Shown: positions 27,543 to 31,374 of the stretch, piece by piece
How the letters are laid out: every line of letters begins with the position of its first letter
Position numbering within the stretch: position 1 is the first letter of the stretch
NCBI RefSeq assembly: GCF_004364775.1
Contig: NZ_SOAL01000007.1
Span: forward strand, 124,001 to 188,000
Length of the DNA stretch: 64,000 nucleotides
Direction: 5' to 3'
Source: Comamonas sp. JUb58
Lineage (GTDB): Bacteria > Pseudomonadota > Gammaproteobacteria > Burkholderiales > Burkholderiaceae_C
Made by a program: the position numbers and the translations under genes
Notes under the pieces: model-generated
The model's input: only the letters and a program-made list of their open reading frames with translations
The model's database searches: none
Told to the model about the DNA's origin: nothing

Positions 27543-28166
27543 ATGAAATTGCTAGGAAGCCTGACCAGTCCCTATGTGCGCAAGGTGCGCGTGGTGCTGG
27601 CCGAGAAAAAACTCGATTACCGCCTGGAGACCATGGATGTCTGGGGCGACCGGGCCACGATTGCCGCGGTCAACCCGCTGGGCAAGGTGCCCTGTCTGGT
27701 GCTGGACGATGGCTCCGTGCTGGTCGATTCACGGGTAATCGTCGAGTACCTGGATACCTTGTCGCCAGTGGGGCGGCTGATACCGAACCTCGGCCGTGAG
27801 CGTGCCGAAGTGCGCAGCTGGGAAGCGCTGGCCGATGGCGTGCTGGATGCCGCCGTGCTGGCGCGCATGGAGCATGCCTTTGCGGGCCGCACCCCTGAGC
27901 AGCGCAGCCCCGCCTGGGTGGAGCGCCAGCTGGGCAAGGTCTGGGCGGGCCTGGAGGCCATGAGCAACGGCCTGGGCCAGAAAACCTACTTTGCCGGCAG
28001 CGGCGTGCACATCAGCCTGGCCGATATCGCCGTGGGCTGCGCGCTGGCCTGGCTGCGCTTCCGCTTTCCGGAACTGGACTGGGCTGAGCGCTATCCCAAC
28101 CTGGCGCAGCTGCTGGAGCGGCTGGAAGCCCGCCCCAGCTTTGCGGCGACACCACCCCAGCTTTGA
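27543..28166 (+). CDS. Glutathione S-transferase family protein
   Basis: This 207-residue cytosolic protein has an N-terminal thioredoxin-like domain (SLTSPYVRKVRVVLAEKK, with the likely active serine at residue 7) and the glutathione-binding GKVPCLVLDDGSVLVDSRVI around residues 43-62, including cis-Pro before Cys. An all-helical C-terminal domain follows, with the ISLADIAVGCALAWLRFR cap motif. It resembles YibF-type bacterial GSTs; the substrate is unknown. A weak TTTACAAT -10-like element lies about 95 bases upstream. The stop codon overlaps the first base of a long palindrome. Confidence 0.9.
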   Translation: MKLLGSLTSPYVRKVRVVLAEKKLDYRLETMDVWGDRATIAAVNPLGKVPCLVLDDGSVLVDSRVIVEYLDTLSPVGRLIPNLGRERAEVRSWEALADGVLDAAVLARMEHAFAGRTPEQRSPAWVERQLGKVWAGLEAMSNGLGQKTYFAGSGVHISLADIAVGCALAWLRFRFPELDWAERYPNLAQLLERLEARPSFAATPPQL

Positions 28167-28216
28167 GAACCTGTTCCAAGTCTCGTCGCGCCGCGACACT
28201 GTCTTGAACAGGTTCT
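28166..28216. repeat. Long imperfect palindrome after the GST gene
   Basis: AGAACCTGTTCCAAG (28166-28180) pairs with CTTGAACAGGTTCT (28203-28216) apart from one bulged C. Inside lies a second stem, GTCGCG and CGCGAC. The whole can fold into one long hairpin starting at the GST stop. No T run follows. The form is that of a REP-like extragenic palindrome; no second copy was noticed in the window. Confidence 0.6.
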
Positions 28217-28225
28217 GAGGCGCAC

Positions 28226-28256
28226 AAAAAAAAGGCCCAGTCGTCTGGACTGGGCC
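28226..28256 (-). terminator. Strong intrinsic terminator, minus strand
   Basis: On the minus strand GGCCCAGTC and GACTGGGCC form a 9-bp stem with a 5-base loop, followed by eight Ts. There is no such run on the plus strand, so it serves transcripts coming from the glnE side, such as the sRNA candidate just upstream. Confidence 0.85.
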
Positions 28257-28263
28257 TGGGTAT

Positions 28264-28366
28264 AAAAAAAGTTGCGAAGCGTCCCGAAGTGAATGATAGA
28301 GAGGGAGGGAGGAGAAGCACTTCAGGTTTGCAGTCATGCCGAATTGGGCCTGAAAGACTTCGCAAC
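28264..28366 (-). ncRNA. Candidate structured sRNA with C-rich, anti-Shine-Dalgarno-like loop
   Basis: Read on the minus strand, GTTGCGAAG (28366-28358) pairs with CTTCGCAAC (28279-28271), and TTTTTTT follows (28270-28264), so the element ends like an intrinsic terminator. Inside are two hairpins: TTCAGG/CCTGAA, and AAGTG/CACTT. The second presents a pyrimidine loop containing CTCCTCCCTCCCTC, complementary to Shine-Dalgarno sequences. A promoter-like pair abuts the 5' end (28367-28396). No protein-coding frame is credible here. This is inferred from base pairing by eye; expression is not shown, and I cannot match it to a named family. Confidence 0.5.
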
Positions 28367-28396
28367 ATTAAAAAGGGTACGTAAAAACTGCGTCTA
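28367..28396 (-). promoter_or_regulatory. Candidate promoter of the sRNA
   Basis: On the minus strand TAGACG (28396-28391, 4 of 6 to the -35 consensus) is followed after 18 bases by TTTAAT (28372-28367, 5 of 6 to -10). Transcription would start within the first bases of the outer stem. Another possible start is TTATTT-N18-TATGGT about 75 bases upstream. From 28397 to the glnE stop nothing else is recognised. Confidence 0.35.
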
Positions 28397-28638
28397 TCGC
28401 CTTTACATGGTTCACAGAGTAGAGGGGCGGTTTTAAGTTTCCGCCAGTCACCATAAATGTATTGTAAACAAATAAATAATTTGTTTCATTCCGTTATCAT
28501 TCGTCGAATTAATCGACTTGCATGGCTCGATAGTACATCGTTTTGAATGCTCTTGCACGTAAGTGAATGCTAGCGACCGGTGGAGGCGCAGTATAAACCC
28601 TTATGAATTCCCGAGTTCCATCGGTCTTTCTGCAGGAC

Positions 28639-31374
28639 TTATGCAGTCTGTAACACCGTTTTCCACAGCGCCCGCACCGTGTGTTGCTCTTCCAGCAAGG
28701 CGGTCTCGGGCACCTGGGTGGGCGCCTCGTTCAGCCTGGCCAAATGTTGCACACGGCGCAAAGCGCGGTAGGCATTCGCCGTCGCCTCGCCCATGCCCTC
28801 GGGCAGCAAACCTGCACTTTCGGCACGACGCAACAAGGTGATGTTGCCCAGGTTGGGACGCAATTGGGGATTGCAAGCCGAGTGCAGCAAGATCAGGTAC
28901 TGCACGGCAAATTCCACATCCATCATGCCGCCCACGCTGTGCTTGACATCGAACAAGCCGGCCGGCACTGCATGGGCGCTGCGCACGCGCTCGCGCATGG
29001 TGGCGATCTCGCTGCGCAGCGCTGCGGCGTCGCGCGGGGCGGTGATCACCGCTTCGCGCACCGCGTCAAAACGCGCTGCGAGCTCGGCGCTGCCCATCAC
29101 AAAGCGGGCACGCGTCATTGCCTGGTGCTCCCAGGTCCAGGCGGTGTTGCTGCCGCGCTGCTGCTGGTAGTTGGCGTAGGACTCAAAGCTGGTGACCAGC
29201 AGGCCGGAGTTGCCGTTGGGGCGCAGCGCGGTGTCGATCTCGAACAGGTCGCCTTCGCCGGTCTTGACCGTGAGCCAGCTGATGAGCTTGCGCACAAAGG
29301 CGGAATAGACCTCGGGCGCGCGTTCGTCGTCGTCATCGAACACAAAGACGATGTCCAGATCGCTGCCGTAGCCCAGCTCTTTGCCGCCAAGCTTGCCGTA
29401 GCCGATGATGCCGAACTGCGGCTCCTCGCGGTGGGCGCTCTTGAGCCGGCCCCAGCACCAGCGCGTGGTCACGCGCAGCACGGCATCGGCCAGTGCCGAC
29501 AGGTCGTCGGCCACTTGCTCGACGGTGATCTGCTGCTCGATGTCGCGCGCCAGGGTGCGGAAGGTTTCGGCATGTTGTGCGCGGCGCAGCAGGTTCAGCA
29601 GGTTCTCGTCATCGTCTTCGGCGGTGGATTGCAGCGCGGCACGGCGCCGCTCCAAGTCGGCCTCAAACTCCTGCGGGTTGAAGCGCTCGTGCATCAGCGC
29701 ATCGCTGGCCAGCTCGTCGATCACGCCCGGATGCTGCAGCATGTAGCGGGCCGGCCATTTGGCCGCACCCAGCATGTGCATCAGCTTTTCATGCACAGCC
29801 GGGCGCTCCTGCAGCATCGCCAGATAGCTTTCGCGGCGCAGCAGCGATTCCATCCAGTCGGCCAAGCGCACGGCGGCGATCTCACTGACCTGGCCCTGGC
29901 TCAGCCACTGGGCGGTGCGCTGCAGCAGCAAGACCAGACGCCCCCGGCCGGCATCGCTCAGGTAGCTGTAGCGGGGATTGCGCTGCCACTGCAGCACGCG
30001 CTCGCGCACCGCCTCGGGCAGCCTGGGCAGCACGGTCTCCAGCTCGGGCGCGCTGGCAGCGGCCCCCTTGGCGCCGCCGCATTGGCCGCTTTTGCAGGCC
30101 TCGTTGCCGCCCAGCAGCTTGTCAAACTCCTGCGCGACCAGCTCGCGGTGCGCATCGAGCTGGTGCAGAAAGCGGCACTCGTCGTCATAGCCCAGGGTCT
30201 GCGCCATCCACAGCAGGTCGTCATCGCGCGTGGGCAGCACATGGGTTTGCTGGTCGTCCAGGTACTGGATGCGGTGCTCCACCTTGCGCAAAAAGATATA
30301 GGCGTCGGCCAGTGCCTGCGCGGTCTCGGGCGCCATCAGGTTGGCGCGCTCCAGGCGGGGCAGGGCCTCCAGAGTGGCGCGGCAGCGCAGCTCGGGGAAC
30401 TGGCCGCCCCGCACCACCTGCAGCAGCTGCACGATGAACTCGATCTCGCGGATGCCGCCGCGCGAGAGCTTGACGTCATTCGCGCGCCCGGGGTGGCCCG
30501 CGCTGCGCTTGGCCGCATGCTCGCGGATCTGGCGGTGCAGGCTGCGCAGCGAATCAAAGACCGCGTAGTCCAGATAGCGGCGGAACACAAAGGGCAGCAC
30601 TGCGCCACGCAGCGCCTGCACATTGGGCGTGCGGATATCGGCCAGCGGCGCCACGATGCGGCTCTTGAGCCAGGCAAAGCGCTCCCACTCGCGGCCATGG
30701 GTCTGCAGATAGTCCTCCAGCGCAGCCACCGAGATGGCGGCCGGACCGGAGTTGCCATTGGGCCGCAGCATCAGGTCCACGCGGAACACAAAGCCGTGCT
30801 CAGTGGTCTCGCCAATCAGCTGGTAGATCAGCTTGATCGCGCGGATGAAGTATTCATGGTTGCTGAGCTTGCCCCGGCCATCGGGCTGGCCCAGGGTCTC
30901 GCCCTCTTGCTCGTAGATATAGATCAGGTCGATGTCGCTGGAGACATTGAGCTCGCGTGCACCCAGTTTGCCCATGCCGATCACCCACAGCTGCACCGGG
31001 TTGCCATCGGCATCGCGCGGCGCGCCATGGCGGCTGTCCAGCTCGGCCCGCGCAGCGGTGCAGGCGGCATCCAGGGTCAGCTCGGCCAGCTCGGTCACCC
31101 CCCGGGTAATGGTCTGCAGATCCGCCTGCTCGTCGCAATCGAGGTGCACCAGGCGCTCCATCACCAGCTGGCGAAGGATGCGCAGTGCAGCGCCCAGCGC
31201 ATAGCCTTGGGCCTGCAGCGCCGCCAGGGTGGGGGCCATGGTGGCATGGGTAGGAGGGCCGCTGGGCAGCAGATCCAGCAAACCCTCGTAGCGGCGGTGC
31301 AGGCGCTGGACAAAGCGCGAATGCTCAGACAGAGGCAGGCTGGCCTGCGGGGGCGTGATATCCGTGTGTGCCAT
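28639..31374 (-). CDS. glnE: Bifunctional glutamine synthetase adenylyltransferase/deadenylase
   Basis: GlnE (911 residues, family size) attaches and removes AMP on a tyrosine of glutamine synthetase in response to PII state and glutamine. It has two nucleotidyltransferase domains. The N-terminal one (deadenylylase) has IGMGKLGARELNVSSDIDLIY-type sequence with the GxxxxELxxSSDxDL pattern near residue 140. The C-terminal one (adenylylase) has GKLGGKELGYGSDLDIVFV near residue 670, with the metal-binding DLD. Both acidic pairs are intact, so both activities are expected. Upstream and divergent is yhdP; downstream is the sRNA candidate. The long open frames antisense to it are GC-driven shadows. 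Confidence 0.96.
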   Translation of the reverse strand: MAHTDITPPQASLPLSEHSRFVQRLHRRYEGLLDLLPSGPPTHATMAPTLAALQAQGYALGAALRILRQLVMERLVHLDCDEQADLQTITRGVTELAELTLDAACTAARAELDSRHGAPRDADGNPVQLWVIGMGKLGARELNVSSDIDLIYIYEQEGETLGQPDGRGKLSNHEYFIRAIKLIYQLIGETTEHGFVFRVDLMLRPNGNSGPAAISVAALEDYLQTHGREWERFAWLKSRIVAPLADIRTPNVQALRGAVLPFVFRRYLDYAVFDSLRSLHRQIREHAAKRSAGHPGRANDVKLSRGGIREIEFIVQLLQVVRGGQFPELRCRATLEALPRLERANLMAPETAQALADAYIFLRKVEHRIQYLDDQQTHVLPTRDDDLLWMAQTLGYDDECRFLHQLDAHRELVAQEFDKLLGGNEACKSGQCGGAKGAAASAPELETVLPRLPEAVRERVLQWQRNPRYSYLSDAGRGRLVLLLQRTAQWLSQGQVSEIAAVRLADWMESLLRRESYLAMLQERPAVHEKLMHMLGAAKWPARYMLQHPGVIDELASDALMHERFNPQEFEADLERRRAALQSTAEDDDENLLNLLRRAQHAETFRTLARDIEQQITVEQVADDLSALADAVLRVTTRWCWGRLKSAHREEPQFGIIGYGKLGGKELGYGSDLDIVFVFDDDDERAPEVYSAFVRKLISWLTVKTGEGDLFEIDTALRPNGNSGLLVTSFESYANYQQQRGSNTAWTWEHQAMTRARFVMGSAELAARFDAVREAVITAPRDAAALRSEIATMRERVRSAHAVPAGLFDVKHSVGGMMDVEFAVQYLILLHSACNPQLRPNLGNITLLRRAESAGLLPEGMGEATANAYRALRRVQHLARLNEAPTQVPETALLEEQHTVRALWKTVLQTA

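Follow-up and report, generated by a model that had tools for sequence, protein, structure and literature searches.

A structured candidate small RNA with a conserved anti-Shine-Dalgarno loop and an ECF-like promoter motif, widespread in Comamonadaceae and near kin

Among the sigmaE-dependent small RNAs (sRNAs) of Enterobacteria, MicA, RybB and MicL have their seeds at the 5' end. Other described RNAs expose stretches complementary to ribosome binding sites in or between hairpins. The part of PMC5688073 that concerns them describes four homologs of double-hairpin design, whose CU-rich regions are predicted to cover ribosome sites; over-expression of ncS27 attenuated growth, and its silencing had the opposite effect. 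The corresponding Rfam family, RF02278 (ncS03, ncS05, ncS27, ncS62 and bdhR1, with the related S17 of Bordetella), is betaproteobacterial, with unpaired CU-rich stretches and several members per genome. In the same part of PMC5688073 the double-hairpin RNAs are likened to NmsR of Neisseria, which consists of two tandem homologues, each with two CU-rich stretches complementary to the RBS. The alpha-r14 or cuckoo RNAs (RF02344; SmelA075, NfeR1) have three or more hairpins with anti-Shine-Dalgarno loops, each with CCUCCUCCC (as described in the sections of PMC3927594 and PMC10746234 on alpha-r14), and stem sequences that vary freely.

The locus investigated here lies in a window of 64,000 nucleotides from Comamonas sp. 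JUb58 (contig NZ_SOAL01000007.1), where the glnE and GST genes converge. The original prediction placed on the minus strand a 9-bp closing stem, followed by seven Ts and enclosing two hairpins. The stem is present and has 10 bp, GTTGCGAAGT (28357-28366) pairing with GCTTCGCAAC (28271-28280), the tenth pair being U-G, and the T7 run at 28264-28270 follows it as a first terminator. The second of the enclosed hairpins is as described, with a 9-bp stem formed by CCTGAAGTG (28318-28326) and CACTTCGGG (28283-28291). Its C/U-rich loop CTTCTCCTCCCTCCCTCTCTATCATT (28292-28317), complementary to Shine-Dalgarno sequences, includes CTCCTCCCTCCCTC and holds CTTCTCCTCCCTCCCTCTCT. The first arm (28327-28356) folds weakly, as a 3+3 bp hairpin in the minimum free energy (MFE) structure of the window, and neither its sequence nor its length is conserved. 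Up to the T run the element has 96 nt, arranged as a closing stem around a junction. The second terminator was also correctly foreseen (28226-28257), with a stem at 28233-28257 ending in T8 (28226-28233). On the 5' side, a conserved UUU at 28370-28372, a possible RNase E or Hfq site, precedes the closing stem. Further upstream lies a putative leader (28373-28408, predicted start around 28408), which folds as a hairpin in the window and differs in length between genera. The fold of the element has an MFE of -30.1 kcal/mol versus a mean of -17.64 kcal/mol in shuffled sequences (z of -4.40; equalled by none of 200), and the longer predicted transcript (28226-28408) has a z of -4.86, with 0 of 200 shuffles as stable. 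The stretch from the GST stop codon to the second terminator contains a long inverted repeat, GAACCTGTTC ... GAACAGGTT (28167-28215), which by exact pattern search occurs once in this genome.

The window gives no Rfam match at threshold, and neither do four loci that hold the RNA or one of its siblings, nor one chance locus. At lax thresholds, the best matches within 28150-28640 are suhB/mmgR (21.1 of 41 bits), the larger part of it overlying the second terminator, and RF02278, the Betaproteobacteria toxic sRNA (20.6 bits, E of 0.085, against a gathering score of 50), which we rejected together with RF02344 (13.6 versus 58.8 bits). RF02278 also differs in design, with 64 positions in two hairpins and short transcripts (58-67 nt for three of four genes in B. 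cenocepacia), whereas the present RNA has a 10-bp closing stem around a junction and 96 nt before the T run. A separate RF02278 gene exists in the same genome (G000:C15:61739-61799, 50.3 bits for a cut-off of 50). The anti-Shine-Dalgarno loop and the freely varying stems are shared with the cuckoo RNAs, but a single CCTCC-bearing tract per RNA is found here in 99 of the 100 loci described below; exact CCTCCTCCC occurs in 45 of them and is absent from the window. NmsR shares the complementarity to ribosome binding sites and is set apart by its published description only. With MicA, RybB and MicL the likeness is the ECF sigmaE-type promoter before the sRNA gene, while the putative seed is an internal loop instead of the 5' end and there is no Rfam match at gathering.

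The 421-base intergenic region was used as a DNA query against 61 genomes, namely that of the window and 60 relatives, of which 38 gave matches at E <= 1. The element with TCTCCTCCCTCCCTCTCT is present in 30 of 30 Comamonas loci, one per genome and the window's own counted; these represent 30 of the 37 Comamonas genomes, the other seven having weak, short or no DNA matches. After dropping identical rows, 27 of these loci formed the genus alignment, in which 99.8% of the 513 stem cells are paired and 16, belonging to 4 pairs, are changed on both sides. The pairing percentage, the number of both-side cells and the covariation score were each reached by none of 500 shuffles. Two weaker measures were reached more often, the number of pairs changed on both sides by 16 and the number of pair types by 192 of 500.

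A second alignment gathered 100 loci (96 distinct) across the family: the window, 29 from Comamonas and 70 others, mostly best matches or (38 of them) from 40 stretches hand-picked across the score range. Since all were selected as matches to a covariance model of the element (R1) and the alignment was fitted to its structure, the 98.2% of cells paired in the distinct rows (0 of 500 shuffles) must be read with that selection. Two loci scanned separately (L113 and L114) match the model as well. Changes on both sides affect 17 of the 19 pairs, in 135 cells (0 of 500 shuffles). When the partner is slid by 1-3 columns, pairing falls to 34-49%, the best slid version giving 49.3%. The closing stem appears in the MFE structure of all 100 loci, and in 93 of them 80% or more of the longest C/U tract is unpaired; the tract measures 13-31 nt. 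CTCCTCC is kept in 98 loci. A terminator-like structure, by the criterion of this analysis, follows in 49 of the 100. A conserved structure with compensatory changes, one of the marks by which an sRNA gene is recognized, is therefore present. The original prediction of a structured sRNA with compensatory changes and a preserved anti-Shine-Dalgarno loop is borne out by this covariation and by CCTCC, kept in 100 of 100 loci; the covariance search it proposed has found both features in the homologues. A coding reading of the element was discarded, since in the 86 loci counted the distance between stem and loop is spread over the three frames (45, 21 and 20 loci).

With a threshold of E <= 0.01, the covariance model matches 141 of 200 genomes of the family, from 102 of 141 genera; the remaining 59 gave no match under filters that are stricter and may lose weak matches. 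The same kind of filters applied to a sample of the whole order left 11 of 399 genomes with matches, all 11 in the window's family. Among the non-matching genomes of the order that are listed (20 of 388), one belongs to the family and 19 to other families. A pattern scan of named genomes recovered at least 118 stretches, and the model confirms 76 of the 80 listed. Among the matches listed, confirmed genera include Comamonas, Delftia, Acidovorax, Paracidovorax, Ramlibacter, Curvibacter, Polaromonas, Xenophilus, Pseudorhodoferax, Simplicispira, Caenimonas and Methylibium, and some confirmed records are titled only Burkholderiales, Gammaproteobacteria or Proteobacteria bacterium, with one titled Pantoea. 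In four off-family pattern matches, titled Microvirga, Bacteroidetes, Acidobacteria and Peribacteria, the model finds nothing, and the two that were inspected look like chance. In the NCBI taxonomy, Comamonas, Ramlibacter and Polaromonas belong to Comamonadaceae and Methylibium to Sphaerotilaceae, so that the family here is that of the search tool, wider than the Comamonadaceae of NCBI. To judge from these sequence searches, the RNA is far more widespread than the single window, being found in Comamonadaceae and near kin.

Upstream of the element, the original prediction proposed a promoter abutting the 5' end, with TTTAAT and TAGACG at 18-base spacing. The letters are there (5 of 6 and 4 of 6 of the consensus), but their conservation as a promoter is not supported. 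TAGACG is already altered in a 93%-identical relative (L008), and in the supposed -10 box the second base is T in 94 of 100 loci and A in none. Transcription starting 6-7 bases after TTTAAT would, moreover, begin within the closing stem. A weak sigma-70-like match (no fewer than 3 of 6 and 4 of 6 letters) is found at this place in 12 of 100 loci versus 1.5% in shuffles, and some species may have a weak second promoter there.

A different motif is conserved farther upstream. In the window, a -35-like box GAAACTT (28435-28441, minus strand) of an ECF (RpoE/AlgU-like) promoter is followed 16 bases on by a -10-like TCTGT (28414-28418). The commonest form of the first box in the family is GGAACTT, and in Comamonas the motif has the form GGAACTT-N16-TCTGA with close variants. 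In 87 of 100 loci, GGAAC is found between 30 and 135 nt ahead of the stem. The spacing is narrowly fixed, as GGAACnn-N-TC is found in 42 loci with a spacer of 16 and in 41 with 17, the other 20 spacers tested giving 0-15. Together, GGAACnn-N16/17-TC is present in 83 of 100 loci versus 1.2% of shuffled upstreams, a comparison that ignores relatedness, while that of spacings uses the same sequences. In these 83 loci, TC stands 22 to 112 nt before the stem (median of 50). The stricter GGAACTT with spacers of 15-17 is found in 53 loci. The 17 loci that lack the motif as defined include the window and its near relatives, where the form GAAACTT-N16-TCTGT is off-consensus at -35. We take GGAACnn-N16/17-TC to be the RpoE/AlgU-type promoter form, and a conserved ECF-like motif upstream of the RNA is well supported by these sequence comparisons. 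With the T runs downstream, the locus shows, at the sequence level only, its own promoter and an intrinsic terminator, as expected for an sRNA gene.

Two tests gave no backing to RpoE itself as the sigma factor. Near rpoE, the motif was found at 1 of 25 loci, which is the shuffle level (two of the loci are incomplete, with an estimated start); a looser GAAC-N17-19-TC occurs at 10 of 23 rpoE loci versus 27% in shuffles. In 1.6 Mb of a Comamonas genome (G001) there was no enrichment of the strict motif, with 6 sites versus 3, 8, 8 and 30 for the controls, and the pattern GGAACTTN16-17TCYAT has no match in the genome of the window. The regulon of the ECF-like motif may be narrow. Within the 1.6 Mb, the only strict GGAACTT-N16/17-TC site properly placed before a predicted gene (L291:11747-11786) precedes that of a 331-aa protein with a Tat-like signal, presumably resembling MsrP/YedY.

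Other upstream sequences were observed. A sigma-70-like ATGAAA-N17-TACAAT at 28461-28489 (minus strand) recurs in close relatives, but sites of this kind are not enriched over shuffles across the family (29 versus 35 of 100). An A/T-rich near-palindrome, AAACAAATTATTTATTTGTTT (28466-28486), overlaps this site and is common to close relatives only. Of the 100 loci, 14 (e.g., L072 and L080) have direct repeats TTAC-N6-TTAC some 25-37 nt ahead of the -35 box, versus 0.27% in shuffles, and [GT]TTACA occurs upstream of the promoter in 43 of 100 loci versus 4.5 in shuffles. Both boxes resemble what we take to be a response-regulator site (CpxR/OmpR-like).

The surroundings bear on the other origin proposed for the RNA, a product of the glnE 3'-UTR cut from that message, perhaps by RNase E at the UUU, with no promoter of its own. 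In its favor, glnE precedes the element on the same strand in 24 of the 30 Comamonas loci, that of the window included. Of the 30, 29 have purB and 27 the GST gene (in L023 it is partial and farther away). Of the six Comamonas loci without glnE, one (L025) ends 128 nt upstream and was left out of the judgment; among the 29 with enough upstream sequence, 5 show no glnE over about 1.4 kb. In a wider set of 74 loci, which includes the window's own and one duplicate place and has flanks of about 0.8-1.5 kb, glnE is nearby in only 4 (the window among them) and not found in the other 70, and GST or purB in 31. The neighbors change while the RNA persists, which means that it keeps its identity independently of the neighborhood; judging from these arrangements, the RNA gene is not tied to glnE.

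The bases at -6, -5 and -4 before the closing stem are T in 83, 94 and 91 of 100 loci, a strongly conserved UUU at the 5' boundary. RNWUU, presumably the fuller form of the uridine signature of RNase E, is found in 46 of 100 loci only. The relevant part of PMC5222698 reports that RNase E cuts with a uridine two nucleotides downstream. A cut of this type at the conserved UUU would agree with that signature, leave an RNA of about 100 nt and fit a 3'-UTR product. Against such a product stand the missing glnE and the spacing-constrained promoter motif kept upstream of the element; the changing neighbors of the Comamonas and wider sets weaken it and led us to reject it as the main reading, and we hold it to be unlikely.

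The genome of the window has two siblings of the RNA with nearly the same loop, at G000:C12:197322-197397 (L363) and G000:C11:127569-127641 (L367). By eye, both show sigma-70-like upstream sequences. Similar siblings occur in seven other Comamonas genomes, chosen by a short loop match to the intergenic DNA query. Their layout has the C/U hairpin first, a small arm second, an outer GCCG/CGGC stem and then a T-rich tail. Among 8 aligned, the stem of the C/U hairpin varies on both sides and the 4-bp outer stem is invariant. The full junction is the MFE structure in only 3 of the 9 folded (L243, L244 and L246), so that the swapped order of the two arms is read from the alignment rather than demonstrated. 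Among 150 genomes of the family, a covariance model of the siblings (R2) matched 4, belonging to three genera.

We consider a stand-alone, stress-induced, trans-acting sRNA gene, with an ECF-like promoter and a loop that occludes Shine-Dalgarno sites, to be the best explanation of the locus, with a probability of about 0.72. A stress sensed through an ECF sigma factor, perhaps of the envelope, would turn on the promoter at 28414-28441, and transcription would run leftward into a primary transcript of about 145 nt, ending at the first terminator, or 183 nt, at the second. Cleavage at the conserved UUU might then shorten it to about 100 nt. A three-way junction, held by the closing stem, would present one long unpaired C/U loop, which would pair with GGAGG-type Shine-Dalgarno sites, perhaps with the help of Hfq, and block the translation of a set of mRNAs. 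The siblings, which occur in Comamonas and in two further genera of the family, would act in the same way under other promoters.

A ranking of 1371 ORF starts by duplex energy (1.6 Mb, or 42% of G001) showed no clear target class, and its top mixes doubtful ORFs with unrelated functions. This lack of a specific class, together with a C/U tract of a length beyond the usual seed, could suit a ribosome decoy or protein sponge, in which the loop would copy the anti-Shine-Dalgarno tail of 16S rRNA and titrate a protein or ribosomal factor. Such loops are, in the parts of PMC5688073, PMC3927594 and PMC10746234 that treat them, reported or predicted to act on the ribosome sites of mRNAs, and a decoy seems very unlikely to us. 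Least credible is that the element only ends transcription, as a tandem terminator or decay barrier in the space between the two convergent genes glnE and GST. Its two stems with T runs do stand back to back, but such a role needs neither the conserved C/U loop nor an upstream promoter motif, nor does it call for other stems in the genome to bear almost the same loop, and it would not explain why the element persists while its neighbors change.

Extending the stand-alone sRNA reading, we tentatively suggest, at somewhat under even odds, a stress sRNA system specific to Comamonadaceae, driven by an ECF factor, with a single loop kept family-wide on drifting stems and with the Comamonas siblings, their arms exchanged and their promoters different, allowing several signals to converge on this one sequence that blocks ribosome sites.

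The open-licence literature searched holds little on sRNAs of Comamonadaceae, and the present RNA was not found described in it, subscription journals being mostly outside its scope. A transcriptome paper on C. testosteroni reports hundreds of predicted sRNAs in the part that deals with them (PMC10637631), and the present RNA may be among these. The finding raises the questions of why anti-Shine-Dalgarno loops recur in several unrelated proteobacterial RNAs and how such an RNA escapes silencing everything. With its defined loop and promoter motif, and found in about 70% of the family genomes sampled, this candidate sRNA would offer a handle on post-transcriptional control in these bacteria.
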